Part shown: in pieces, positions 1-20,957 of the stretch | Layout of the letters: each line of letters starts with the position of its first letter | How positions within the stretch are numbered: the first letter of the stretch is position 1 | Virus record (IMG/VR): IMGVR_UViG_3300042460_002232 | Location: 1-49,298 of that record | DNA length: 49,298 bases | From: a virus | Reading direction: 5' to 3' (one strand) | Notes under the pieces: model-generated | Seen by the model: only the letters and a program-made list of their open reading frames with translations | What the model was told of the DNA's origin: nothing | The model's database searches: none | Position numbers and translations under genes: made by a program

Positions 1-1059
1 TCAATCGGTTGCAGGGGTTTTTTGTTGGGCGTTGAGGGCTCTTTTCTTGGCGGCTTCTACATCGTTTTGTAGAACGTTTTCTACAATTCCGGCCACAGGC
101 GCCACCATTTCCCCGCGGCGCTGACGGACGTAGTCCTCGGTCATGGTGATCGACTGGTGCCCGAGCAGCTCCTGTGCTTTCTCCTTTCCAGGTGAGTCGG
201 TCGCCGCCTTGGCCCGCAGGTCGCGGAACTGGTAGTCCTGGCCTGCATCGGCGCAGGCCTTCAGGAAGCGCTCGTGCAGCATCTTGTAGGTCAGCGGCGC
301 CCCGTCGACCTGCACCAGGTAGAGGCTGGTGACGCCCTCGCGCGGCGCCTTGAGGCGCTCGACGACAGAGGCCAGGGGGCCGTTGATGGCAATGCGCTGC
401 TTCTTCCGGGTCTTGCCCTGGGTCACATGCAGGGCGCCGTCGCGGACATTGCCGCGGGTCCACTTCAGGACGTCGGATACGCGCTGGCCGGTGTAGTAGG
501 CGAGATCCATCGCATCCCGCAATTCCTGCGGGGCCTTCGCATACACCGCAGCGAAGGCCTCGTCCTCGACGTAGACCTCCCGGGCGCGCTCGACGTTGCG
601 GCTGACGCCGTAAGCCGGATTCGGCGCATCGGTGTAGCCGCGCTCCCGTGCCCAGTTGAAGAGGTGGCTGAACAGGGCGATCTCGCGGTTGGCGCGGACC
701 TTGGCCTCCCGCATGTCCAGGTACTGCCGGAGGTGCGCCGGCTTGATCTGATCCAGGGGGACCGCCTCGAAGACCGTGAGCAGCTGCTTCAGCTCGCCCT
801 CGTTCTCCTTCTGGGTCCTCGGCGCCTTCAGCGGGATGCACTTCGCCTTGTAGACCTTGGCGACCTCGCCGAAGGTAGGGCCGGTGGGGGCGACGGTGCA
901 CTCGAACTCGGCCCATTTCTTCTTCGCCAGGGCTAAATCCTTGCCCAGCGCGATCCACTTCCTCGGCTTTCCGCTGGTGACGTAGTAGTAGGCGTCGCCT
1001 TTCCGCGACATGTGCGGCGGCAGGCCGTGATCCTTGGTGCGCTTTCTCCCCATGCTCAT
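1..1059 (-). CDS. int: Tyrosine-recombinase integrase
   Basis: Site-specific recombinase that integrates the phage genome at the host attachment site; 352 aa with this start. The C-terminal catalytic domain shows box I (YYTGQRVSDVL, R193), a beta-hairpin lysine (QGKTRKKQ), box II FRDLRAKAATD (R282), LLGHQSITMTEDY with H301 and nucleophile Y310. The first residue of the usual HxxR is Arg, a variant I know from other phage integrases. The N-terminal part is the SAM-like core-binding domain with a basic arm. The ATG at 1059 is chosen over a TTG at 1089 because TTG lacks a ribosome site, while GGAGG lies 13 bases before ATG. It is the last gene of the leftward operon, 4 bases after the DUF4224 gene. 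The stop codon is the first base triplet of the window, so attP/attL would lie just outside. Confidence 0.95.
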   Translation of the reverse strand: MSMGRKRTKDHGLPPHMSRKGDAYYYVTSGKPRKWIALGKDLALAKKKWAEFECTVAPTGPTFGEVAKVYKAKCIPLKAPRTQKENEGELKQLLTVFEAVPLDQIKPAHLRQYLDMREAKVRANREIALFSHLFNWARERGYTDAPNPAYGVSRNVERAREVYVEDEAFAAVYAKAPQELRDAMDLAYYTGQRVSDVLKWTRGNVRDGALHVTQGKTRKKQRIAINGPLASVVERLKAPREGVTSLYLVQVDGAPLTYKMLHERFLKACADAGQDYQFRDLRAKAATDSPGKEKAQELLGHQSITMTEDYVRQRRGEMVAPVAGIVENVLQNDVEAAKKRALNAQQKTPATD

Positions 1060-1063
1060 AGGT

Positions 1064-1288
1064 TTATCCGGTCCTCCGGAGGGCGTCAAAGTTCGGGGTC
1101 ACGATGGTGGCCTGGCCGATGACCGCGGGGCCGCCGCCCAGCCGCTTCTCCGCATAGGCTCTGGACACGACGGGGCGGCCGTTCAGGTTGACGGTATGTG
1201 CCCAGCCGTTCCGCTCCAGCCAGCGCCGCTGGCAGTCCGACCGGTTCCGGCCGGTCAGCTGGACGAGTTCCTCGGCTGTCAGGAACAC
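1064..1288 (-). CDS. DUF4224 excisionase-like protein
   Basis: A 74-aa protein opening with FLTAEELVQLTGRNR and continuing with a WLERNGW and GRPVVSRAY block. This is the pattern of DUF4224 proteins, small helix-turn-helix phage proteins normally encoded next to a tyrosine integrase. The role is inferred: DNA bending or directionality (excisionase-like) at the attachment site. The GTG start has GGAGG seven bases upstream. The stop is 4 bases before the integrase ATG, so the two are translationally linked. No experimental function is known to me for the family. Confidence 0.8.
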   Translation of the reverse strand: MFLTAEELVQLTGRNRSDCQRRWLERNGWAHTVNLNGRPVVSRAYAEKRLGGGPAVIGQATIVTPNFDALRRTG

Positions 1289-1655: not shown

Positions 1656-2471
1656 TCATGCCGCGGATTCCAGTGCGGCCGCCCGGCGCCATCGGCCCGG
1701 CCCAGTGCGGATGTGATGGAGCTGCAGCACCTGGCGAACCTTCTCTTGCCAGTAGCGATTCGTCGTCGGCCGCCGCGGCGCGATGCTGGCGTAGATGGCA
1801 TCGAGGCCGGCTTCGCCATCCAGTTCGCTGAGCACCTGGTCAACGACGGAACGCCAGACCGAGGCGCGGCCGCGCGTCAGGGTCTCCCGAACACCGGCCG
1901 GCATCCGCTCAACATCGTGCGTCTCCTCGAATAGCGCGAAGCCGATCAGCAGGCGTCGCTCGCTTTTTCGGAACAGGGCGAATACCAGCGGTTTCGACAG
2001 GCGGGGAAACAACGTCCGCGGCAGCAACTCGGCCTGCATGCTCCAGCGCGCGGCGTATCGGGCAACGACCGAAGGTGTCTGCAGGACGTAGGCGGGCAGG
2101 ATGAACCCGGCGAGTCCTTCCGGCTGCAGCAGGTCCAGGGATCGCTGCAGCATGCCTTCGATCACTTCGGCCTTGAACGGCGGATTGCCGATGATCGCGC
2201 TGGGACGGTATGGCAGCGGCACCGTGCGGAAGTCGCCGACGACGACGTGCCGGCCTGTTCGTGCTTCAGCCAGTGCTGCGAGATAGGGATCGATCTCCAC
2301 GCCGACCGCCTCGACATCAGCGGGAATGGCCTGCAGGAATGCTCCATCGCCACAGCTGGGCTCGATGACGCAGTCGCTGCGTCCGAGCCCCGGGAAGTGG
2401 CGCTCGATCAGCGCCTCGGCGGCCCAGGCCGGGGTGAACCATTGTCCGAGTCGTTCACGATTAATGCTCAT
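1656..2471 (-). CDS. N6-adenine DNA methyltransferase
   Basis: Class I SAM-dependent methyltransferase of 271 aa. Motif I is IEPSCGDGAF (residues 36-45), an acidic SAM-ribose residue follows in GVEIDPYL, and catalytic motif IV is NPPF (96-99), typical of amino-methyltransferases acting on adenine in DNA. An early GQWFTP segment matches the N-terminus of gamma-type or TaqI-like enzymes. No restriction nuclease is adjacent, so it is an orphan enzyme; the likely job is self-modification against host restriction. The ATG at 2471 overlaps the stop of the upstream gene by four bases (ATGA), which fixes the start; a longer reading would run through the neighbour. Target sequence cannot be read from the protein. 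Confidence 0.88.
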   Translation of the reverse strand: MSINRERLGQWFTPAWAAEALIERHFPGLGRSDCVIEPSCGDGAFLQAIPADVEAVGVEIDPYLAALAEARTGRHVVVGDFRTVPLPYRPSAIIGNPPFKAEVIEGMLQRSLDLLQPEGLAGFILPAYVLQTPSVVARYAARWSMQAELLPRTLFPRLSKPLVFALFRKSERRLLIGFALFEETHDVERMPAGVRETLTRGRASVWRSVVDQVLSELDGEAGLDAIYASIAPRRPTTNRYWQEKVRQVLQLHHIRTGPGRWRRAAALESAA

Positions 2472-2770
2472 GCCGACACCTTCCATCCTTCTTTGCCGAG
2501 CAATTCGGGAAGGCGGTCGCCTTGCAGTCCGTCGAACCACACGGCAATGCCGTCTTCAGGGCTCCAGAAGACCGTCTCGACTGTCATGTAGTCGCCGCTC
2601 CAGCCGACAGCGAGTTCGTCGCCCGTCCGCGGCAGGAACGGCAGCGTCGCGGGCTTCCGCAGCTCCAGGTATTCGCCGTCCTTGCCGGCGCCGATAACCT
2701 CGACGACGAGCACGACCGGGACTTCCTGCTCCCAGCGCTTCGCAACCATGGGAATGCCGCGCGAACTCAC
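2468..2770 (-). CDS. Hypothetical protein between two methyltransferases
   Basis: About 100 aa from a GTG that overlaps the cytosine methyltransferase stop (GTGA) and has GGGAG six bases upstream; an alternative ATG at 2749 would give 93 aa. The protein is rich in beta-prone segments (VPVVLVVEVIGAG, ELAVGWSGDYMTVETVFW, GIAVWFDG) and looks like a small beta-barrel or KOW-like fold. I do not recognise the family. Four-base overlaps on both sides put it in one translational unit with the two methyltransferases, so a role linked to DNA modification is possible but unproven. Confidence 0.7.
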   Translation of the reverse strand: MSSRGIPMVAKRWEQEVPVVLVVEVIGAGKDGEYLELRKPATLPFLPRTGDELAVGWSGDYMTVETVFWSPEDGIAVWFDGLQGDRLPELLGKEGWKVSA

Positions 2771-4659
2771 GGCGCGCTCCCGAACTGCAGCGCCACGACC
2801 AGCGGCGACACCCACACCGGCGCATTGCTGAGGACGAACGTCTCGCCTGAGCCTGCCAGCAGCAGCGCATGCCCGAACACCTCGGCCATCGCCTCCGCCG
2901 CATCCGAAGGGATCGCGTTGCCGATCCATTCCCGGACCTGGCCGTCGCTGCCGCCGCGGAGCGCGAAGTCCTGGTACTCCTCGATGTCGAACAGCGACTG
3001 CAGCGCCGCGCATTCCAGCGTCGTGAACGGGCGATGCCAGGTGCCGTCCTCGGCAATGATCAGGCACTGCAGCTTGTCGTCTGCGGCCGGCAGCCGCGGA
3101 TCGGCGACATTGTTGTGCCCGTTGTCGTGCTGGCCGCTGCCGGTGATCGCGTAGGCCTTGTCGCGCCACGGGACGACGCCGTAATGCCCGCCAGTGATGT
3201 AGCCCTTGCTGCGGTCCATGTTCGGCCGCGGATCGGCCACCGACAGCCAGCCACCCTGAACACCCTTGCCGCCGGCGATGACGGTGTGGGCATGCTCGCT
3301 CCAGCTGCCGACGTGCAGGTTGTTTCGGCGGTTCTCCCACGCCGGTCGGGGATCGGCCACGGCGTAGGCGCCTTGGTCGTCACCGCCGATGACGGTGCCT
3401 GTGCGTCCCTCCCACTTCGATACGGCGTACTTCGAGAAAAGCGGACCCTGTGGCGGTCGCGGATCAGCAACGTTGCCGGCGCCCGAGGTCACGGCCGGCG
3501 CGTGAGCGTCGAAGCGAGCGACCCGGTAGGCGTGATTGAACAGCGGGCGATCGAGCCGCGGGTCTGCCACGCAGTACCCGCCTTGGCCTGGCGACTTCAC
3601 GTTGATGATCGCGCCGGTAGATGCCGCCCACTGGCCGACGCCGTACTGCCGGTAGTCGTTGCTGCCGGCGTCGAAACGAGGATCGGCGACTGCGAAGGTG
3701 CCGCCGGCGGGCCGGCCGTTGCCCGTCATCGTGCCGGCATGCTCAAGCCACGGCTGCACCCCATAGGCGCCGTTGTGGTACGGACGCTCAGGGATAAGGC
3801 CATAGTCGGCCAGCATGCCGTCTTCGACGCGGAGCCGGTTCAGCGACCGCCAATCCGAGCCCGCTTCGACAAAGGCAAGTCGCACCCACGTCTTCCACTG
3901 CAGGCGCGGCAGCCGGTGCAACGGCATGTCGTCACCGGTCGGGCCGGGCACCGGCAGCTTGCCGAGGACATCACCGACAGCACGCAGAGGCTTCTGAGGT
4001 GGCTGATAGAGGAAATTCGGGACCTTCTCCATGTGCCGGCCGACCAGCAGCAGCCGCTTCCTGGACTGCGCCAGGCCGCCGAGCTCGCCGCAGTCGTGCA
4101 CGGTTTCCGCTGTGGCGTAGCCGTAGTGGTGCAGCAGATCGCGGATCCGATCGATGAAGCGGCGACCGCGGGTCATCATCCGCGGCACGTTCTCCAGGCA
4201 GAAGAACGCCGGCGGGTTCTCGGCGAAGGCTTCCAGGCAGAGCCAGACGCCGCGCAACGCGAGCTCGTTCAGCGCTTCGTACTTCGCGGTCTTGCTCTTC
4301 TGCTCGGCGAGCAGGCCGGAGTAGCCCTTGCAGGGCGGCGAGGTCAGGACCATATCCGGAAACTCGCCACCGGCAGCGGCGCGGATTTCGGCTGGCGTGA
4401 TCTCGCGCCAGCCCTCCGGCGGCTTCCGGCCGTGGAACGCCTCGTACTGTTCGGCGCTGAAGAGGTCCAGGCAGGCGATGCGGGCCTGCAGGATGCGCGC
4501 TGCGTTGGCGACGGCGCCTGCATCGTTGTCGATGCCACCGAGGACACGCCACTGGCCGCGCAGGCCGCGGATGTAGGGCTTTGCCTTCTGGAAGCCGCGC
4601 GGAGCGCCGCCGATCCCGATGAAGGGGAAGAAGGCCTTCAAGTCGCGAACGGGCGTCAC
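2767..4659 (-). CDS. C5-cytosine DNA methyltransferase with repeated TRD
   Basis: Methylates cytosine C5 in DNA using SAM. Motif I is near the N-terminus (FFPFIGIGGAPRGF). Motif IV is TSPPCKGYS with catalytic C110, motif VI CLENVP (155-159), motif VIII QSRKR (198-202), and motif X REWIGNAIPSDAAEA near residue 576. At 630 aa it is about twice a typical monospecific enzyme. The extra length is the target-recognition region (about 290-525), which holds six VADPR-containing repeats at residues 324, 364, 397, 434, 474 and 518. Each carries a Y-x-V-x-x-W and A-x-T-(V/I)-I-like core. Start is a GTG overlapping the upstream stop. No cognate nuclease is present; an anti-restriction role is inferred, perhaps with several target sites. 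Confidence 0.92.
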   Translation of the reverse strand: MTPVRDLKAFFPFIGIGGAPRGFQKAKPYIRGLRGQWRVLGGIDNDAGAVANAARILQARIACLDLFSAEQYEAFHGRKPPEGWREITPAEIRAAAGGEFPDMVLTSPPCKGYSGLLAEQKSKTAKYEALNELALRGVWLCLEAFAENPPAFFCLENVPRMMTRGRRFIDRIRDLLHHYGYATAETVHDCGELGGLAQSRKRLLLVGRHMEKVPNFLYQPPQKPLRAVGDVLGKLPVPGPTGDDMPLHRLPRLQWKTWVRLAFVEAGSDWRSLNRLRVEDGMLADYGLIPERPYHNGAYGVQPWLEHAGTMTGNGRPAGGTFAVADPRFDAGSNDYRQYGVGQWAASTGAIINVKSPGQGGYCVADPRLDRPLFNHAYRVARFDAHAPAVTSGAGNVADPRPPQGPLFSKYAVSKWEGRTGTVIGGDDQGAYAVADPRPAWENRRNNLHVGSWSEHAHTVIAGGKGVQGGWLSVADPRPNMDRSKGYITGGHYGVVPWRDKAYAITGSGQHDNGHNNVADPRLPAADDKLQCLIIAEDGTWHRPFTTLECAALQSLFDIEEYQDFALRGGSDGQVREWIGNAIPSDAAEAMAEVFGHALLLAGSGETFVLSNAPVWVSPLVVALQFGSAP

Positions 4660-4817
4660 TGCTCGCGCCCTCCCCTGGTGAGGACCCGCGCGATCTCGCG
4701 ATCGAACTCGTCCCAGCCCCGGGCGTCGTCGTCGCGGTTGATGCTCACCGCGGCCCAGCCGATGAGGCCGACGACTGCCGCAATGGCGACCAGCACGAAC
4801 AGGATCAAGCCGCTCAT
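4656..4817 (-). CDS. Small single-span membrane protein (53 aa)
   Basis: Starts MSGLILFVLVAIAAVVGLIG, one hydrophobic segment of about 20 residues, followed by a charged tail ending RVLTRGGREQ. It overlaps both neighbours by GTGA or ATGA junctions, which supports a real gene despite its size. I do not recognise a family; an N-in or N-out inner-membrane peptide is the most that can be said. Confidence 0.6.
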   Translation of the reverse strand: MSGLILFVLVAIAAVVGLIGWAAVSINRDDDARGWDEFDREIARVLTRGGREQ

Positions 4818-4948
4818 CGGTGGGCCTCCACGATCTCGACGCAGCGGCCGGCGGCGCGGACCTCGCCGTAGCCGACCAGCGTGATGCCCAGCACCACCAG
4901 CAGGATCAACGAGCAGAAGGCGTAGAACAGCTTCTCGGCAGTTTCCAT
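4814..4948 (-). CDS. Small single-span membrane protein (44 aa)
   Basis: METAEKLFYAF leads into one transmembrane stretch (CSLILLVVLGITLVGYG) and a short polar tail with one cysteine. Its stop overlaps the start of the next small membrane protein by four bases (ATGA). The start lies one base before the stop of the ATPase gene, so it sits tightly in the operon. The pair of tiny membrane proteins may act together; function unknown. Confidence 0.55.
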   Translation of the reverse strand: METAEKLFYAFCSLILLVVLGITLVGYGEVRAAGRCVEIVEAHR

Positions 4949-4949
4949 T

Positions 4950-6713
4950 TCAGGTCTCCGTGTCGAATAGGGTGTCGCTGGCGCGGATCTCGCCGCGGCC
5001 TTCGATCAGTTCCAGGGTGCGTAGCCGGGAAAGGGCGTTATTGAACCCACCGCCGCTGGGCTCGTAGCCGGCGTTGGCGGCTAGCTCGGCCTTGTCGAGC
5101 GCGCGCGGGTACGCGTTGGCTAGGGCTTCCAGGCAGGCCCGCTCCGCCTTGCTCAGCTGCCGCAGCCAGTGCTGCAGCAGCGCATCGCCGCTCGGCAGCG
5201 GCTCGTAGGAGCCCAGCGCATCGATGCCGGCAGCAGTGATCTCCATGCGGTCGCCGCCGCCGGTGAGGTAGCCGCGGGAACGGCACGCGCTGAGGGCATT
5301 GTTGAAGCCGCCGCCGGTGCTGGCGTAGCCGGTGAGGATCGCGATCTGCGTCTTCGTGCGGCCCGCCGGGTGCTGCGCCAGGGCGATCAGCACGGCACGC
5401 TCGGCCTTCGTGAGCTTGGCCGTGCCTGCAGCACCTGCGGCACCTGCAGGCCTGTGCTTGACCGGCGCAGCCTGCGGCAACACGACCGGCCTGCTGGCGG
5501 CAGCGGCAGCGGCCTGGCGTGCCGGCACAGCTGGCGCCGGCGTCGGATGGTGGCGCTCCGTCTCGGCCTTGATCATCGCCTCGCGGCGGATTGCACTGAC
5601 GCTGTCCAGCATGCGGTCCGCGAGTTCAGAGGCGTAGAGCGCGCCGTCGCGGATGCCGGCCGAGTATCCGGTGCCCAATGCGGCGGCCTCGATCGCAGAT
5701 ACATCGATCTCTGGTGCGGTCGGCTTCGCCGACAGTTGCCGTTCCAATTCCGCGATGCGTCGTTTCAGTTCCTTGGGATCATCGGCCTTGGCGCGATCGG
5801 CACTGACCTTCATTGCCGCGCCAAGCCGTTCGATATCGACCTGCGCCAGAATCTTCGGCAGAACGCGATGCTCGCCGGCCTTCGGGGTGGCGCCGCTGTC
5901 GAACGTTCGGCGCGCACGGACGGCGACCTTCGCGAAGATGTCCCCGAGGCCGGGCGACCAGACCCAGGCAGTGCCGACCGGCAGCGACGGCAGGCTGTCG
6001 ATCATCGCCTTGGCCTGCTTGGCCTCCGCATGAACCTGGACCCACTCCATCACGGCGCTGATGTCCTTCGGGTGCACGAGGCGCAACGCAATCAGCACCT
6101 CACACTGCGTCAGCACGTTCTTATTCACGACCGCCGGTCGCTGCGTGATCAGCGTGGCACCGATGCCTTTGATCCCACCGCGGCGCACGATGTCTTCCAT
6201 CGCACCAAGCGTGCGGGCCTCGTCGTGCATCGGCTTCTGCGGGGCGTACAGATCGACCTCATCGCAGATCAGGTGCATCGGCCGGCGGTTCAGGCGATAC
6301 AGCGTCGCCAAGAACACACCGAGTAGCCGGTTCGCGGCACCCTTGCGCAGCAGCGACAGATCGATGATCGCGCTAAAGCCGTGCTCTACCAGTGCAGTCG
6401 CGACTTCCTCGCCTCCGTGCTCGTCGAGCGGCAGGTCGGCATGGTCGCCGCCGAACACGACGATGGGGAATCCGGCTTCCTTGCCGTCGGCGGATGAGCG
6501 CATACCCCAGTGCGCGCCCGTCGGATCGATGATGCAGACCTGCTGCCCGGCGCCGAGCAGTTCCTCCGCGATCACCGCCGAGGTGTAGGACTTCCCGACG
6601 CGTCGCTTGGCCAGGATCGCGACGGACTGCGTGATGAGCTCCAGCGGCAGGTTGAACGGTGCGCCATCGACATGGCCGACGTGCAGCGTGACGGCTTCAG
6701 AAGGGGCGACCAT
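4950..6713 (-). CDS. HerA/FtsK-type (DUF87-like) ATPase with winged-helix tail
   Basis: 587 aa. The N-terminal half is a P-loop ATPase of the HerA/FtsK kind: Walker A AKRRVGKS (residues 35-42, Ala in place of the first Gly), followed by VCIIDPTGAHWG, Walker B LICDEVDLYAP and a sensor-like ATLITQRP. A Pro/Ala-rich linker of about 50 residues follows. The C-terminus has two winged-helix repeats, each with GY-x-(S/P)-x-GGGFNNALS. The start is ATG 6713 because GAGGAGG lies six bases upstream; the ATG at 6719 would abut the ribosome site. It overlaps the exonuclease gene by 17 bases. HerA ATPases translocate DNA and often pair with nucleases, so a DNA-processing partner of the upstream DnaQ-like exonuclease is a reasonable inference. 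Confidence 0.82.
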   Translation of the reverse strand: MVAPSEAVTLHVGHVDGAPFNLPLELITQSVAILAKRRVGKSYTSAVIAEELLGAGQQVCIIDPTGAHWGMRSSADGKEAGFPIVVFGGDHADLPLDEHGGEEVATALVEHGFSAIIDLSLLRKGAANRLLGVFLATLYRLNRRPMHLICDEVDLYAPQKPMHDEARTLGAMEDIVRRGGIKGIGATLITQRPAVVNKNVLTQCEVLIALRLVHPKDISAVMEWVQVHAEAKQAKAMIDSLPSLPVGTAWVWSPGLGDIFAKVAVRARRTFDSGATPKAGEHRVLPKILAQVDIERLGAAMKVSADRAKADDPKELKRRIAELERQLSAKPTAPEIDVSAIEAAALGTGYSAGIRDGALYASELADRMLDSVSAIRREAMIKAETERHHPTPAPAVPARQAAAAAASRPVVLPQAAPVKHRPAGAAGAAGTAKLTKAERAVLIALAQHPAGRTKTQIAILTGYASTGGGFNNALSACRSRGYLTGGGDRMEITAAGIDALGSYEPLPSGDALLQHWLRQLSKAERACLEALANAYPRALDKAELAANAGYEPSGGGFNNALSRLRTLELIEGRGEIRASDTLFDTET

Positions 6714-11992: not shown

Positions 11993-12192
11993 CAGATTCC
12001 TCCACGCGCACGCAGGCGCGAGAGCAGGTCCGGCTCTTCCTTGAGGTCGCGGTCGCACAGGACCCCGTCTCGGCCGGTGGTGAGAGACACGCCGCGGGTG
12101 CGGCGATGGCGGATGCGAGAGACGGCCGCCGCGTGGGCGCTGCAGAGCAGCACGCCGAGGCAGATGCCGGCGAGGAAGGCGAAGAGATTCAC
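11992..12192 (-). CDS. Small membrane protein (66 aa)
   Basis: [24 protein letters not shown] is a single hydrophobic segment or signal anchor, followed by an arginine-rich tail (RIRHRRTRG) and a soluble end. Start is a GTG that overlaps the DUF6745 gene stop by four bases (GTGA). Topology by the positive-inside rule would put the C-terminus in the cytoplasm. Family unknown. Confidence 0.6.
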
Positions 12193-13472
12193 GATTCGGC
12201 CCCCGGGCTGTAGTCCTCGGGGCGCTTGAAGTACAGGGAGTAGTCGGCGCGGCGCCAGGTCGATGCCGCAGCTGCGATGACCTCTCGCGATGCGCGGCCG
12301 TCGTAAGCGTCGGGATCAACCGACAGCGTGTAGCGCTTCACGGAACCATCCGGTTCCGGCGTGCTGTTCAGCACGTCGAGAAGGACGATGCCGATGTTGT
12401 CGTCGCGGAACAGGCGAGCCGTGCGCAGCCCGATGACAGGGTCATTCTCGGGCCGGGAATCGACCAGGATCAGGCCGGCATCATCGAGAAAGCGCTGGTA
12501 GCCGTAGCGCTCGACCATGACGCGGCGGACCTCCGCATTGGTTTCAGCGCGAATCGCTGCAATCGTGATGCTCTCCGGCCGCTCAATAACATCCGCGGGA
12601 ACCGCGACGCCGTGCCAGTAGTGCAGCTGCCAGCCGTCGCGGTAGGCGATGGCGGGGCCGGTCTCACAGTGCAATCGCCCAGCATCATCGCGATGCACTA
12701 CCAGTGGACGATCAGAGATGGCGAGCACATTCTCGTGCCACCAGGTCCAGCCACAGGACGCCGCAAGATCCTCGTAGGGTTCGAACTTCGCGAGGACAGG
12801 ATCCTGCCAGCCCATGACATCGCGAAAAAACGAAACATAGGCGCTGAATCCGGCGCCCCAGAGTTGCCCGCCGAAGTCGTTGTAGACGCCGTCGCGCAGC
12901 GACGGCGACGACCAGACCTGCGACCGGACCTGCGACTCGACCTGCGACCGGACCTGCGACCGGACCTGCGACCGGACCTGCGACTCGACCTGCGACTCGA
13001 CCTGCGACCGGACCTGCGACCAGACCTGCGACCGGACCTGCGACCGGACCTGCGACCGGACCTGCGACTCGACCTGCGACCGGACCTGCGACTCGACCTG
13101 CGACCAGACCTGCGACCGGACCTGCGACCGGACCTGCGACCGGACCTGCGACCGGACCTGCGACTCGACCTGCGACCGGACCTGCGACCAGACCTGCGAC
13201 CGGACCTGCGACCGGACCTGCGACTCGACCTGCCCGAATTCACGCAGCATCGCCCAGGCAATGATTCCGCCCAGTGTCGCGCCGTAGGGGCTGGACATCC
13301 GCAGCACAACCATCGGCTTGTTGAGGTTGGCGAGCTCGTAGCCTTTGAGCGCGGCGGCTGTGGCGCGCTCGAAATCAGCAGGCTCCGTGGAGAGCCCGAT
13401 TTCGATCCACTTCCGGGACCATTCCGCGAAGCGCCCGACTTGCTCGGGCGTGATGCTGTCGATGCGCGCCAT
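12189..13472 (-). CDS. DUF6745-like protein with long QVxS repeat
   Basis: 427 aa in three parts. Residues 1-80 are helical and open with [19 protein letters not shown]. Residues 81-188 are 27 tandem four-residue units QV(R/E/W)S encoded by a 12-bp minisatellite. Residues 189-427 hold a [20 protein letters not shown]...[13 protein letters not shown] block that matches my memory of DUF6745, a domain of unknown function in bacteria and phages. The repeat length is a multiple of three throughout, so changes in copy number keep the frame. The gene starts one base from the stop of the next upstream gene. No enzymatic residues can be pointed to. The repeat could form a beta-helix-like rod or spacer; this is inference. 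Confidence 0.78.
12909..13232 (-). repeat. 12-bp minisatellite, 27 units, inside the DUF6745-like gene
   Basis: Perfectly phased tandem units, on the coding strand CAGGTCxxGTCx in sense, translating to QV(R/E/W)S. Only the third codon of each unit varies (CGG, GAG or TGG). Twenty-seven units span 324 bases without interruption. Order of the variable residue from the N-terminus begins E, R, R, W, R, E, R, R, R, R, W. Confidence 0.95.
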
Positions 13473-14977: not shown

Positions 14978-15018
14978 CGTCTTACTCCCTTGCCGCTTGG
15001 ATGAGCGGCTTGGGAGTG

Positions 15019-15047
15019 ATATTCACACGGTGTGTAATCTATGTCAA
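15019..15047 (-). promoter_or_regulatory. PL-like promoter for the leftward operon
   Basis: Reading leftward, a perfect TTGACA -35 (15047-15042) is followed after 17 bases by GAATAT (15024-15019). The -35 lies in one operator-like site and the -10 touches another, so repressor binding would block it. It is the only good promoter ahead of the operon that begins at 14977. Confidence 0.65.
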
Positions 15048-15080
15048 CACTGTGTGAATTATGATTTCACACGCCGTTAC
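15022..15080. promoter_or_regulatory. OL operator cluster (three sites)
   Basis: Sites with core CACA-NN-GTGT: 15022-15038 (TTCACACGGTGTGTAAT), 15044-15060 on the other strand (TTCACACAGTGTTGA), and a weaker half-site 15066-15080 (TTCACACGCCGTTAC). Centres are about 22 bases apart. The same pattern recurs in front of the Cro-like gene at 18439-18502, as expected for one repressor acting on two promoters. Confidence 0.65.
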
Positions 15081-15164
15081 TTTTCCGACGAACGGTTAAA
15101 TGCACCGGCGCGTACCAGGCCTCCGCGAAGCGTCAATTCCCAAAAGCGGTTGCCGATCATCGTT

Positions 15165-15187
15165 TTTCAGGGCTTGACGCCCTGAAA
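15165..15187. promoter_or_regulatory. Perfect 9-bp inverted repeat upstream of 15308 gene
   Basis: TTTCAGGGC and GCCCTGAAA flank a TTGAC loop. The repeat is followed by a roughly 120-base GC-rich leader before the ATG at 15308. There is no T-run, so a terminator is unlikely; a protein-binding site or structured leader is more plausible. The TTGACG at 15174 could be a -35, but no convincing -10 follows at 16-18 bases. Confidence 0.45.
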
Positions 15188-15307
15188 TTAGTGGCAGGCT
15201 GATTTATGGGGGTCACGCGTTCTGCTTTCGCTGCCAGCGATCGGGGCATTCGCGCGAGAGGGTCGCGGGCACCGGCAGGCTATCCGCACGTAACACAGGA
15301 GCAAGCA

Positions 15308-15613: not shown

Positions 15614-15952
15614 CTAGTTGCCAGGGGGGCGGCAGGTGTTTTTCCAGTCCTCATCGAAACCTTTTGCCAGCCACTTGTCGGCGTCATCGAGGACGATCTG
15701 CGGCGACATACGCACTTTGTCTTCCTTCACGATGAAGCGGGTGAATCCAACGTAGCCACCCATAGCGTTCTTGGCGTTAACTTCGCCGCACACCGCTTCG
15801 TTCCAGGTAACAAACATTTCGCGAAACTGAGCAGAGGCTGGGTCCTTGAGTCCTTGGCGGACAGCCTCCTTGGCGTTGGGAATCTTCGGATCGACCCTGC
15901 CGCAGCCTAGCGCGGCCAGCAGAAGCGTCAGGATCAGGATGCGTGGTGCCAT
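15614..15952 (-). CDS. Small lipoprotein
   Basis: 112 aa. The N-terminus MAPRILILTLLLAALGCGR is a lipoprotein signal with lipobox LAALGC, so the mature protein should be lipid-anchored at Cys17 or so. The remainder (NAKEAVRQGLKDPASAQF, then CGEVNAKNAMGGY) matches a kind of small lipoprotein found in proteobacterial genomes and prophages. ATG 15952 is chosen because GAGGA lies eight bases upstream; a GTG at 15967 is the alternative. It lies downstream of darG and might be transcribed in the lysogen, which would make it a candidate surface-modifying (superinfection-excluding) protein. The leftward spacing from DarG is 45 bases. Confidence 0.7.
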   Translation of the reverse strand: MAPRILILTLLLAALGCGRVDPKIPNAKEAVRQGLKDPASAQFREMFVTWNEAVCGEVNAKNAMGGYVGFTRFIVKEDKVRMSPQIVLDDADKWLAKGFDEDWKNTCRPPGN

Positions 15953-15997: not shown

Positions 15998-17071
15998 TCA
16001 GAGCAATCGATCGCCAACTTGTGGTTGTCGCAACCACCCATCCTCACGAAGCCGATTCCAAGCGGCTTCGATATGCGACCGCTTCATGATATCGCGCTTC
16101 CGTTCGTTCCAGCTGTGCACCGCCAAAACTGCTTCATCGAGTGTGCTGGCGAGTGTATCGGGATCGTGATTGACCCAATGCACAGTGGCAAGCAATTCCA
16201 TGCCATAGGGCGACTGGAAACCTTCGATCAGGTTGGTAATGCGATCAACCCGCGCATTCAGCTCAATATCGCCTGCTTCCCGAAGGAAGGCTTCAGCTTC
16301 GTCGAGCGCGCCCTTCGTAGGGCTAATCTCCGACTGAACAACCCCATCGCCAACGCCCACGATGTAGTGGCCTTCCATGTGCGATAGAACGTGCTTTAGT
16401 TCCTGCGCGTAAGGGCCAAAGGTGTGCTTGATAAAATTCATCCGCAACTTTTGACCGGCGGACTGCAGGAAGTACGTGAGCTTCTGAACTTCGATCTGCG
16501 ACAGGCCGTAGTCGAGCTCCTTGTAGGCTTCTAGGACCTTGATCATCGCGGCGCGGCCAGGAGTCATCTTGGGCTTAGCTGTCCTTGTTTCCATCTCTGT
16601 TGCCGCAGGGGCACCATTCGGAGGGAATAGCACAATGCGAAGTTCAGGAACGCGAGCGGCCGCTGCCTCGATCAACGGTTTGACATCAGCCCAATCCAAT
16701 CCGCCTGCTCCACAGCCCAGTGGAGGCATGGCAACTGATTTGATGCCCAACTGCTGGGCTACGGCAATAAAATCTTCCAGTCCGGAGCTGATGTACTCCA
16801 GTTTCGAGGGCTGCCGCCAATGCTTCTTTGTCGGGAAGTTTATGACATAGTGCGGCTGCACCATCGCGCCATTATCGAAGGCAAACATCTTTCCGATTTT
16901 AACTTCGCCACGCTTGCATGCTGCTTCGTAAGCGTCGTAATTCTTTGTAAATTTCCGACGGAACTGCAGCGCGATGCCTTTACCCATCACGCCGACACAG
17001 TTCACTGTGTTGACGATGGCATCGACATCGTCCCGCTTCAGCAAGTCTCCGGATGCGATTTCGACTGACAT
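15998..17071 (-). CDS. darG: DarG antitoxin: DNA ADP-ribosylglycohydrolase
   Basis: 357 aa. The N-terminal macrodomain (about 1-155) reads GDLLKRDDVDAIVNTVNCVG with N24, then VMGKGIALQF with K31, and PPLGCGAGGLDW (116-127): the DarG-type active site that removes ADP-ribose from thymidine in DNA. A linker (about 160-175) leads to the C-terminal domain (KLTYFLQSAG, KHTFGPYAQELKHVL, and a YIVGVGDG element), which in known DarG proteins binds and blocks DarT directly. The length and domain order match the family. It starts 10 bases after the darT stop. Base composition is less GC-rich than the flanking operons, consistent with a mobile cassette. Confidence 0.93.
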   Translation of the reverse strand: MSVEIASGDLLKRDDVDAIVNTVNCVGVMGKGIALQFRRKFTKNYDAYEAACKRGEVKIGKMFAFDNGAMVQPHYVINFPTKKHWRQPSKLEYISSGLEDFIAVAQQLGIKSVAMPPLGCGAGGLDWADVKPLIEAAAARVPELRIVLFPPNGAPAATEMETRTAKPKMTPGRAAMIKVLEAYKELDYGLSQIEVQKLTYFLQSAGQKLRMNFIKHTFGPYAQELKHVLSHMEGHYIVGVGDGVVQSEISPTKGALDEAEAFLREAGDIELNARVDRITNLIEGFQSPYGMELLATVHWVNHDPDTLASTLDEAVLAVHSWNERKRDIMKRSHIEAAWNRLREDGWLRQPQVGDRLL

Positions 17072-17081
17072 TTCCTTCGAC

Positions 17082-17750
17082 CTAGTAGTACCAATCCGGG
17101 GTGATTGCGACCTTCATGTTGAGGCCCTCATTCCGGAGCAACTTAGACACCCGTACTTGAGCGGCATTATCGAATACCCCGAGGCAGACGCACAAATCGA
17201 GCGGAACTGATTGATGCACGAGGAGTTCTGCCATCCTTTTCTCCATGCGCTCGCTATAACGGGCGTGGCCGGATACGCTCTTCCAGTACCTGCAATAGCC
17301 ACCAATTGTGGGTTGTTCGTAGAACAGGTCCCAAGCGACGTGGGTGGCGAGCTGATCCATATCGTCGCAGGGAATGCTGTAATCGAGGCTTGCATTGCGG
17401 TCGTAGAAAACGATGCGACGGCCAGCATCTACAATTCGTTGTGCATAAGTCGCGAAATGCACGATGTCTTTTTGTCGGTAGGCACAGCCTGGCACGTTAC
17501 CTTCATTGATAGTGAAGAGCATCGGCGATCGCGGCGCAAAGTAGAAAGGCACGTAATCATGAAGGCTGCCGCCGGGCCCAGCGCTTACCATCTTTGCAGC
17601 TCGACGGTGTTGGATGGTCTGGTAGGCGATGTTTTGATAGCCGAACCCGGCTTCAGATAGGCTGTTCTTCGCGCGTAACTCGCCCATGCCGAAAATCTGA
17701 GCCAGATTGTCGATCGCGGTGATGTGGAATATGGGCGTGGGATTGCGCAT
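17082..17750 (-). CDS. darT: DarT toxin: ssDNA thymidine ADP-ribosyltransferase
   Basis: 222 aa, DUF4433 family. It opens with PIFHITAIDNLAQIFGMGELRAKN (H9 region is the NAD-binding start), followed by DYVPFYFAPRSPMLF and the IVFYDRNAS element. EKRMAELLVHQSVPLD carries E175, the probable catalytic Glu in the ARTT region. Known DarT enzymes ADP-ribosylate thymidine in single-stranded DNA and stop replication, and DarTG pairs act as toxin-antitoxin and abortive-infection systems. All features expected are present and the ORF is intact. It lies 12 bases after the repressor stop and 10 bases before darG. Confidence 0.93.
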   Translation of the reverse strand: MRNPTPIFHITAIDNLAQIFGMGELRAKNSLSEAGFGYQNIAYQTIQHRRAAKMVSAGPGGSLHDYVPFYFAPRSPMLFTINEGNVPGCAYRQKDIVHFATYAQRIVDAGRRIVFYDRNASLDYSIPCDDMDQLATHVAWDLFYEQPTIGGYCRYWKSVSGHARYSERMEKRMAELLVHQSVPLDLCVCLGVFDNAAQVRVSKLLRNEGLNMKVAITPDWYY

Positions 17751-17762
17751 AACTCGCCGGCC

Positions 17763-18428
17763 TTAGTCGTCGTCGCCGCCGTGCCCACGGACGCGTCCGA
17801 TGACGGCGTAGTTCTCTCCCACGATCGGTTCCGGGGGGTATTTGGACTGATCCGGATTGAGGCTGTACATGATCCAGCCCCCTGCTTCAGACCGTCTAAG
17901 CTGCTTGAGCCTTAGCCCATCTTCGCCGATCAGCGCGAAGTTCTTGCCGTGCACTGGCTCGCGTTCGCTCATGTTGATCAGAACCCAGCTGCCGTGCGGG
18001 TACTTCGGATCCATGCTGTCGCCGCGCACGGTCCAGACCTTGCACCGCTCCGCCCGCAATCCCTTCTTCTGCATCCAGTCCAGGCGGAAAGCGTGGGATT
18101 TGTCGATCTGCTCGTGATCCCAGAAGACCTCCCCGTTACCCGCTGAAAGACTGGCGCCGCAGACCTTGTCCACATAGGTGAGCGCATCCGGCGCCGCGTC
18201 TTGCCCCTTCTCTTCGAGAATTCGGTTGGGGTTCATATAGACCAGGAAGGCCTCCGGGAAATTTGCGAGGACTTTTTCGAACCCGTCCTTGGAAACCGCA
18301 CCTCGAGCCTTCCAATTCGCCCAGACGGCGTTGGACACGCCTAGCTCGGTGGCCATATCGGTCTCATTCCACCCGCGATCGCGCTGAACGCCCTGCAGAG
18401 CTGCGAGAAGCTTTTTTCCTAGATCCAT
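17763..18428 (-). CDS. CI-type repressor with S24 self-cleaving domain
   Basis: 221 aa. N-terminal helix-turn-helix (about 20-55: NETDMATELGVSNAVWANWK), then a linker with the Ala-Gly cleavage pair at 97-98 (SLSAGNGE). The C-terminal S24 peptidase domain has TVRGDSMDPKYPHGSWV (S138 nucleophile) and LRLKQLRR (K175 base). This is the LexA/lambda CI design: RecA-stimulated self-cleavage causes induction. It lies divergent from the Cro-like gene with three operator-like sites between them. No ribosome site precedes ATG 18428. DarT and DarG follow in the same direction with 12- and 10-base gaps. Confidence 0.92.
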   Translation of the reverse strand: MDLGKKLLAALQGVQRDRGWNETDMATELGVSNAVWANWKARGAVSKDGFEKVLANFPEAFLVYMNPNRILEEKGQDAAPDALTYVDKVCGASLSAGNGEVFWDHEQIDKSHAFRLDWMQKKGLRAERCKVWTVRGDSMDPKYPHGSWVLINMSEREPVHGKNFALIGEDGLRLKQLRRSEAGGWIMYSLNPDQSKYPPEPIVGENYAVIGRVRGHGGDDD

Positions 18429-18438
18429 GGCCGAACGC

Positions 18439-18502
18439 TAAACAATGTGTTATGCGAGCGCTTCACGCTATGTTGATTTTCATAATTCACATGGTGTTTA
18501 AT
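18439..18502. promoter_or_regulatory. OR operator cluster (three sites)
   Basis: Three sites at 24-base spacing share the CACA-NN-GTGT core: 18439-18452 on the minus strand (TAACACATTGTTTA), 18462-18477 (TTCACGCTATGTTGAT) and 18486-18502 (TTCACATGGTGTTTAAT). They resemble the OL sites at 15022-15080. The last site overlaps the -10 of the rightward promoter. Confidence 0.65.
18473..18502 (+). promoter_or_regulatory. PR-like promoter
   Basis: TTGATT (18473-18478), an 18-base spacer, and TTTAAT (18497-18502), one mismatch from TATAAT. The expected transcription start (about 18509) is at the ATG of the Cro-like gene, which has no ribosome site, so a leaderless message is likely. Confidence 0.6.
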
Positions 18503-18509
18503 GATGATC

Positions 18510-18764
18510 ATGGACGCACTCGACAGAGCAATTCAGAAGGTTGGGGGCTTGGCCGACTTCGCCGAGCGTATCGGCTTGAGGCGATCGCAGATGAGCACGG
18601 TCGCCATGTGGCGGGCGCGCAAGCGCGTCCCGGCCGAGCGGTGCATCGCAATCGAAACTGCTACCGACGGCGCAGTCACCCGCTACGACCTTCGCCCCGA
18701 CGTCTTCGGCCCGCCCCCGGCTGTCAAGGCTGATCCGCAGCCGCAAGCCGAGAGAGCCGCCTGA
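18510..18764 (+). CDS. Cro/YdaS-like repressor
   Basis: About 84 aa from ATG 18510 (other in-frame ATGs at 18501 and 18504). ALDRAIQKVGGLADFAERIGLRR then VAMWRARKRVPAERCIAIE and VTRYDLRPDVF is the pattern of YdaS/Cro-type helix-turn-helix proteins, small dimeric repressors at the head of prophage early operons. It faces the CI-type repressor across the OR cluster. The 3' tail is Pro/Gln-rich and probably disordered. The position and family make it the Cro equivalent. Confidence 0.85.
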   Translation: MDALDRAIQKVGGLADFAERIGLRRSQMSTVAMWRARKRVPAERCIAIETATDGAVTRYDLRPDVFGPPPAVKADPQPQAERAA

Positions 18765-19108: not shown

Positions 19109-19440
19109 GTCGGTCTCCGGCGGGGGTGGGGTGTGAATCCTGGCCCTCGCATTCTGCCCCTGTCGGCAGACCGGCTCCATTCAACCCGGCGTCCCCCTGC
19201 GCCGGACTCAACCGCTGCTGTCCCCCCGCAGCGGCGGGCTGGCGCTGACTCCCCCCGGTCAGGCGTCGCGGTATCAGTACGCCGCACTCTCTCCTCCCGG
19301 CAGGGCCTTCGCCCTGCTCGCACCTTGGGCCTGCGTGAGCGGGCTCCTTCCTATTCGTCGTTTCCATGCGGCGCATCGTCGCGCCCGTTCAGGGGAATTC
19401 ATGGGAACAGCCCTTCCCCTGAATTCCCAGGGAGCCCCTC
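19109..19440. other. Gene-free interval upstream of the CII-like gene
   Basis: No convincing gene on either strand in about 330 bases. Roughly 19140-19310 of the plus strand is C-rich with many CCCC runs and little A, which is the composition of Rho-utilisation (rut) sites; in lambda a Rho-dependent terminator (tR1) sits between cro and cII, the same relative place. The right end holds the nested inverted repeats described separately. Confidence 0.4.
19388..19428. repeat. Two overlapping inverted repeats before the CII-like gene
   Basis: TTCAGGGGAA (19388-19397) pairs with TTCCCCTGAA (19414-19423). GGGAATTCA (19393-19401) pairs with TGAATTCCC (19420-19428). Both are perfect and cannot form together. 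The second ends 13 bases before the ATG at 19441. Confidence 0.6.
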
Positions 19441-19820
19441 ATGCAGCAGATGAGCCTCGCTTTCGAGCCAGGTCTGGCCCAGCGATATCGCCGAGCACGC
19501 GAGTGTCTGGCGACCCAGGTCTATCAGCGAGGCCTCGTCGCCGTCGCCGGGAAGCTGGACATGTCCCCGTCGAAGCTGACCGAGAAGCTGGCCGGCGCGA
19601 GTTCGGACGGCAAGGTCCGCGGCTTCACGCTCGACGAGCTGGAGGACTACATCGAGCAGACAGGCGACGTGTCCGTCGTCCACTACCTCGCGGAGAAGTA
19701 CTGCCGCGACCCGGCGGTGCAGCAAGCCGAAGCTCTAGCACAGCTCGCAGCGATCACGAAACAGCTGCCTGCCTTGCTCAGCTTGGCAGGCCTGCAGCAG
19801 GCGCCGAAGGGGCGCCGCGG

Positions 19821-19824
<4 letters not shown>
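19441..19824 (+). CDS. CII-like phage regulatory protein
   Basis: 127 aa. AFEPGLAQRYRRARECL and QRGLVAVAGKLDMSPSKLTEKLAG form a helix-turn-helix (about 30-51), followed by RGFTLDELEDYIEQTGD. The plan (DNA-binding first half, Leu-rich tail ending QAPKGRRG) resembles the phage CII/Phage_CP76-type regulators encoded between cro and the replication genes. GGGAG lies six bases before the ATG. The stop overlaps the replication gene start (ATGA). Family assignment is by pattern, so CII-like in position is surer than in mechanism. Confidence 0.6.

Positions 19825-20949
<1,125 letters not shown>

Positions 20950-20957
<8 letters not shown>

Follow-up and report, generated by a model that had tools for sequence, protein, structure and literature searches.

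Why should a temperate phage have, immediately behind its own repressor gene, genes for a toxin that modifies DNA and for the matching antidote? The question is raised by IMG/VR virus record IMGVR_UViG_3300042460_002232, the whole of which (49,298 bases, uncultivated; hereafter the window) was analyzed. It was chosen for a run of three minus-strand genes encoding a CI-type repressor, the DNA ADP-ribosyltransferase DarT, and the macrodomain antitoxin DarG. The phage is temperate, since it encodes an integrase. darT and darG lie directly behind the prophage repressor on the same strand, without a strong terminator in between, and the coordinates exactly reproduce what an earlier note on this DNA gave for the order and strand of the genes and for the two gaps, 12 nt and 10 nt long (Table 1). 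The answer we favor, and hold to be reasonably probable, is that darTG is acquired exclusion cargo, expressed in the lysogen as part of the cI unit in the slot that rexAB fills in lambda, and that the resident phage is protected chiefly by DarG already present.

Each protein of the pair was assigned to its family by several models. DarT scored 207.6 bits against the NCBIfam model toxin_DarT and DarG 448.6 bits against antitoxin_DarG, where the equivalog cut-offs are 150 and 250 bits, respectively; the Pfam DarT family was matched at 1.8e-53 and the PADLOC DarG model at 1.1e-128. E175 and R50 of DarT, the latter of which we take to be the arginine of the NAD site, are invariant in an alignment of DarT homologues. 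The closest relative in the PDB is Thermus DarT (7omv, 1.6e-29), of the thymidine-modifying DarT2 type. E175 pairs with the position of Thermus E160, which is alanine in the PDB chain, as in the inactive E160A mutant (PMC5179494). The DarG macrodomain matched 5m3i at 1.9e-56 (5m31 was also matched), and its K82, within an NFPTK motif, is equivalent to the catalytic K80 of Thermus aquaticus DarG; the roles of the DarT glutamate and the DarG lysine are those described in PMC5179494. The C-terminal half of DarG, residues 187 to 341, matched the DarT-bound DarG domain of Mycobacterium tuberculosis (7yk3_B, 3.8e-25). The active-site residues had been called intact, and E175, R50, and K82 are indeed all kept. 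Judged by catalytic residues, macrodomain, and C-terminal domain, the pair is a DarT2-type DarTG, predicted to ADP-ribosylate thymidine in single-stranded DNA (ssDNA) and to reverse the modification.

The repressor is, by its sequence, an S24 phage repressor with a helix-turn-helix domain, a Ser/Lys dyad, and a cleavage site, for which SOS cleavage is predicted. The dyad columns (S138 and K175) are invariant across three repressors, that of the window and those of two further phages described below, and an Ala-Gly pair at A96, in the typical position, suggests self-cleavage. The N terminus resembles a helix-turn-helix domain, an assignment taken from a model of residues 1 to 56, which are predicted to be helical and match Cro/C1 helix-turn-helix chains, such as 434 Cro, as well as C-proteins. 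The Pfam helix-turn-helix match fell under the cut-off (0.11), and a sequence search of solved structures returned no relative of the repressor.

The repressor-darT-darG unit lies between two clusters of operator-like 15-mers, which the earlier note had not recorded; nor had it recorded a fourth gene, for a small lipoprotein, that follows darG. Three related 15-mers stand in the 72-base gap between the repressor and the divergent cro-like gene, and a second set of three stands beyond the lipoprotein gene. A matrix built from the first cluster alone and run over the whole window ranked two sites of the second cluster, OL2 and OL1, third and fifth; the converse matrix ranked OR3, OR2, and OR1 sixth, seventh, and third. 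The two best scores in the OL region were equalled in none of 2000 shuffles of that region, while OL3 is weaker than the other OL sites and was spotted by eye. No strong match to the motif was found inside the repressor-darT-darG-lipoprotein unit. These mutually predicting clusters, as putative operators, have the layout of the right and left operators (OR and OL) of lambda, and because the same motif clusters at both ends, the four genes fill the OR-OL interval. The lipoprotein gene, whose product has a signal peptide and lipobox recognizable by eye, is the probable last gene of the unit. Its phrog_2320 relatives are extra genes near tail, tape-measure, or lysis genes in phages of Klebsiella, Paracoccus, Acinetobacter, and Pseudomonas; the protein possibly acts at the envelope in exclusion.

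The earlier note saw neither a promoter nor a terminator between the genes. We likewise found no promoter, although this part of the claim carries little weight: a consensus scan of 4 kb for sigma70-like sites gave none, against 1.5 expected, and was empty even at the repressor promoter. Nor was a terminator found between the genes, the sole terminator-like site on their own strand being a 5-pair stem within darT that is at chance level. Past darG and past the lipoprotein gene, a search for intrinsic terminators gave only hairpins that lack a U tract. In the gap between the lipoprotein gene and OL, a 9-bp inverted repeat (TTTCAGGGC/GCCCTGAAA, 5-base loop, positions 15160 to 15190) is followed by a U tract on neither strand. 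Just past the pL-like promoter, a GCCGCT/AGCGGC hairpin (14990 to 15012) falls in the presumed leftward early leader, a position that recalls nut-type elements.

The composition of darTG sets it apart from its carrier. Both genes have 54% GC, with 62 to 65% GC at third codon positions (GC3), against 65.6% GC for the phage overall and GC3 values of about 73 to 87% for most other genes. Because it is more AT-rich than the rest of the phage, darTG looks like acquired cargo.

Does the arrangement recur? DarT itself and three alignments of DarTs were used to scan IMG/VR, and DarT models to scan genome collections; together these scans gave 185 distinct darT genes. A sequence-motif screen for S24 repressors over 1.5 kb upstream, which other repressor types escape, placed such a repressor directly upstream in 3 of these 185 loci, all in phage records: the window, IMGVR_UViG_2927639592_000001 (L110), and IMGVR_UViG_3300031416_000307 (L123). 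A fourth motif match, in L016, was an unrelated protein. L110 has a cro-like gene, the repressor, a gap of 20 nt, darT, and darG overlapping it by 4 bases, then an intrinsic terminator and a second operator cluster with a TTGACA element, beyond which a RecT-like gene was recognized by eye; its repressor and that of the window share 27% across 106 residues in the S24 portion. L123 has a Cro-like gene, an S24 repressor, 125 nt, darT, and darG. In both, the GC content of darTG is again below that of its surroundings. One more phage, IMGVR_UViG_2724679380_000004, was found by eye: three tandem P2-type CI paralogues (positions 2055 to 6287) are followed by an integrase and, at the contig end, by a DarT1-like gene whose product is fused to an HD-like domain. 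In an approximate tree of 164 DarTs (FastTree), the four repressor-linked DarTs fall in separate supported clades and require four changes. Placement behind a repressor thus appears, on these few cases, to be a rare layout that has arisen several times independently.

Conservation of the arrangement in chromosomes was also considered and rejected, as none of the chromosomal darT loci screened has an S24 repressor within 1.5 kb upstream; the nearest chromosomal darT genes are often beside type I restriction genes. Two further observations concern neighbors of darT. In L123, a DNA/RNA nonspecific endonuclease gene (5779 to 6309; PF01223, 4.8e-20) lies directly past darG, at the contig end. In L163 and in genomes G1367 and G1417, a shorter DarT-like gene (about 190 to 200 amino acids) lies directly upstream of a canonical darT, giving tandem DarT paralogues.

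The proposed membership of darTG in the lysogeny operon is strengthened by these results, since OR and OL bracket the unit and at least two unrelated phages, L110 and L123, repeat the order repressor-darT-darG. That darTG expression is tied to lysogeny is, at the level of sequence, well supported. The closest precedents are rexAB and BstA, which lie downstream of cI and share its promoter (PMC8585504); RexAB-type genes are also found in Pseudomonas putida prophage P1 (PMC12894663). Like lambda rexAB, darTG lies behind cI, on the same strand, in the OR-OL interval, and it would likewise be made in the lysogen and act in exclusion; the proteins, however, are unrelated, Rex combining a sensor that binds DNA with a membrane protein, whereas here a DNA ADP-ribosyltransferase is paired with a macrodomain antidote. 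BstA of prophage BTP1 recurs behind many different repressors and acts on replicating phage DNA, but it is a single protein of a different family, with self-immunity conferred by a DNA element, aba, where the window has a protein antidote adjoining the toxin (PMC8585504). The Tha/Ith pair of Staphylococcus aureus phage 80alpha (PMC11087260) resembles our proposal in that lysogens express the defense from the cI promoter and express less of it on induction. It differs in that Tha is an RNase inhibited after induction by the antisense-encoded Ith, while the inhibitor in the window is in the same operon as the toxin and would be switched off with it.

The DarTG systems of T. aquaticus (PMC5179494), enteropathogenic Escherichia coli (EPEC) (PMC7003065), and Vibrio cholerae (PMC11481870) share the families, catalytic residues, and toxin-antitoxin order of the window pair, but for none of them is a phage repressor described ahead of the pair. 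That of V. cholerae blocks phage from its native locus (PMC11481870). The darTG of Thermus phiMa-like prophages has been proposed to protect lysogens (PMC11437467); phiMa, too, is temperate, but its darTG lies between opposite-strand genes, not behind the repressor. In 2022, viral toxin-antitoxin pairs that include ADP-ribosyltransferases were predicted to abort superinfection in lysogeny (PMC9503650). In the open-access literature searched, no account of a repressor-darT-darG operon was found. The principle is already known from RexAB, BstA, and Tha, and DarTG in this slot seems to be unreported.

In the lysogen, a single leftward transcript from the repressor promoter would yield CI, DarT, DarG, and the small lipoprotein. 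DarG would bind DarT and strip its marks from DNA, leaving the lysogen healthy, whereas a superinfecting phage would free or overwhelm DarT, which would then mark the ssDNA of the invader and block its replication. That DarTG defends the lysogen is probable, by analogy with other DarTG systems and with cI-linked defense genes. On induction, CI would be cleaved and the unit switched off, the resident phage being spared mainly by pre-existing DarG rather than by the stop in transcription. On this last step we depart from the earlier note, in which shut-off of the operon is what lets the resident phage escape. That view found no support: protein already made would persist, synthesis of DarG would stop as well, and shut-off does not suffice in 80alpha, where induction silences the cI promoter and yet Tha, in the absence of Ith, ruins the burst (PMC11087260). 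Because shut-off leaves DarT in place and halts DarG, self-protection more likely rests on persisting DarG. The TNTC-type sites on which known DarT2 enzymes act are not avoided in the resident phage; TCT words are depleted, perhaps through codon use. A search over darTG for an antisense inhibitor like Ith gave only open reading frames (ORFs) that resemble shadows of the GC-rich frame.

Several points weigh against lysogen-expressed exclusion cargo as the explanation. Most darT genes are in chromosomal defense islands, and in phages, too, the majority of copies lie elsewhere than behind a repressor; OR and OL are operators by sequence inference only; and since the promoter scan misses even the repressor's own promoter, an internal promoter must still be reckoned with, for which the 125-nt repressor-darT gap of L123 leaves room.

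The alternative that survives best is that darTG keeps the prophage in place: with loss of the prophage DarG would be lost, leftover DarT would kill or arrest the cell, and the cI slot would simply ensure constant expression in lysogens. We consider this a possible, lesser explanation. It fits all of the anatomy of the window, constant expression from the cI promoter would suit such a module, and it can coexist with defense; moreover, V. cholerae DarT hinders deletion of its mobile element, and the authors call that system multifunctional (PMC11481870). However, it demands that DarG disappear faster than DarT, the role would work without cotranscription with cI, and a HicAB pair in a P. putida prophage did not stabilize its prophage (PMC12894663).

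A weak promoter within the repressor gene might instead drive darTG, in which case the position behind cI would be incidental, reflecting a site that tolerates insertion, and toxin dose would be independent of lysogenic state. Other DarTG units stand alone or in defense islands, so they need other promoters, and weak promoters are invisible to consensus scans. We think this unlikely, given that the genes stand only 12 and 10 nt apart with no strong promoter-like site, that the L110 unit is closed by an intrinsic terminator only past darG, and that both the window and L110 have the unit between two operator clusters.

Equally unlikely, in our judgment, is that DarTG serves as a sensor for the lysis-lysogeny switch, free DarT marking ssDNA and so eliciting SOS, RecA filaments, self-cleavage of the S24 repressor, induction, and shut-off of the operon. 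Free DarT might induce the prophage, because DarT provokes SOS, as seen in E. coli and EPEC (PMC5179494, PMC7003065), and S24 repressors are of the SOS-cleaved kind. All the components share one operon, the window repressor keeps the Ser/Lys dyad and the Ala-Gly site, and the dyad is also found in the L110 and L123 repressors. Yet SOS cleavage of the window repressor is a prediction, the same link would hold for any SOS-inducible prophage beside any DarTG, and the S24 domain is so common in phage repressors that the pairing may lack selected meaning. More doubtful still is a mutual regulation loop, in which the repressor promoter sets the dose of toxin and antidote, and free DarT damages ssDNA, raises SOS, and so leads to repressor cleavage and induction. 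If such a loop were real, superinfection would trigger defense and at the same time cause the resident phage to leave; the recurrence would reflect selection for the loop. An identity of the pair with RexA/RexB was rejected, as the proteins fall in the DarT and DarG families and no Rex match was present in Pfam or PADLOC.

On the favored reading, that darTG is exclusion cargo of the cI unit, a DNA-modifying toxin-antitoxin pair would join the short list of defenses tied to a prophage repressor promoter, and its separate placement there by unrelated phages points to selection for lysogen-only expression. The locus also bears on how a prophage might be spared by a toxin of its own if production of the antidote ceases along with that of the toxin. 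DarT-induced SOS next to an S24 repressor offers a concrete case in which defense could in turn influence the choice between lysis and lysogeny.

Table 1. Features of the window, in order of position
Feature	Position	Strand	Basis and remarks
Integrase	1..1089	-	Far end of the leftward genes; phrog_1 integrase 3.6e-46; PF00589 2.5e-15
pL-like promoter	15019..15047	-	TTGACA-17-GAATAT, consensus match only; under OL1 and OL2; precedes leftward early genes from 14977
OL1, OL2, OL3 (putative)	15022-15036, 15044-15058, 15066-15080		Operator-like 15-mers
Small lipoprotein	15614..15952	-	45 nt past darG; phrog_2320 3.7e-22 using a longer GTG start
darG, antitoxin, 357 aa	15998..17071	-	Macrodomain and DarT-binding C-terminal domain; NCBIfam antitoxin_DarG, PADLOC, PDB
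darT, DarT2-type toxin, 222 aa	17082..17750	-	DNA ADP-ribosyltransferase; NCBIfam toxin_DarT, Pfam DarT, Thermus DarT structure
CI-type repressor, 221 aa	17763..18428	-	Helix-turn-helix-like N terminus, C-terminal S24 peptidase; PF00717 7.2e-14; phrog_4 repressor 4.6e-25
OR3, OR2, OR1 (putative)	18439-18453, 18462-18476, 18486-18500		Operator-like 15-mers
cro-like divergent regulator	18501..18764	+	YdaS/Cro family; PF15943 9.7e-20, P22_Cro 0.0016, phrog_35 2.4e-19; start possibly 18511

Close relatives of the phage were sought by IMG/VR scans with the repressor and the terminase, which gave none and one short contig, respectively, and no DNA-level match to the window was found among phage records. 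Elsewhere in the window, a minus-strand gene at 12189 to 13472 encodes a protein that matches Pfam DUF6745 at 2.3e-41; near the middle of this protein, at about 12.7 to 13.25 kb, a four-residue unit is repeated in a long tandem array. A second, short tandem repeat, at about 20400 to 20530 within the ORF at 19335 to 20957, encodes a GTGTGT... stretch of peptide.
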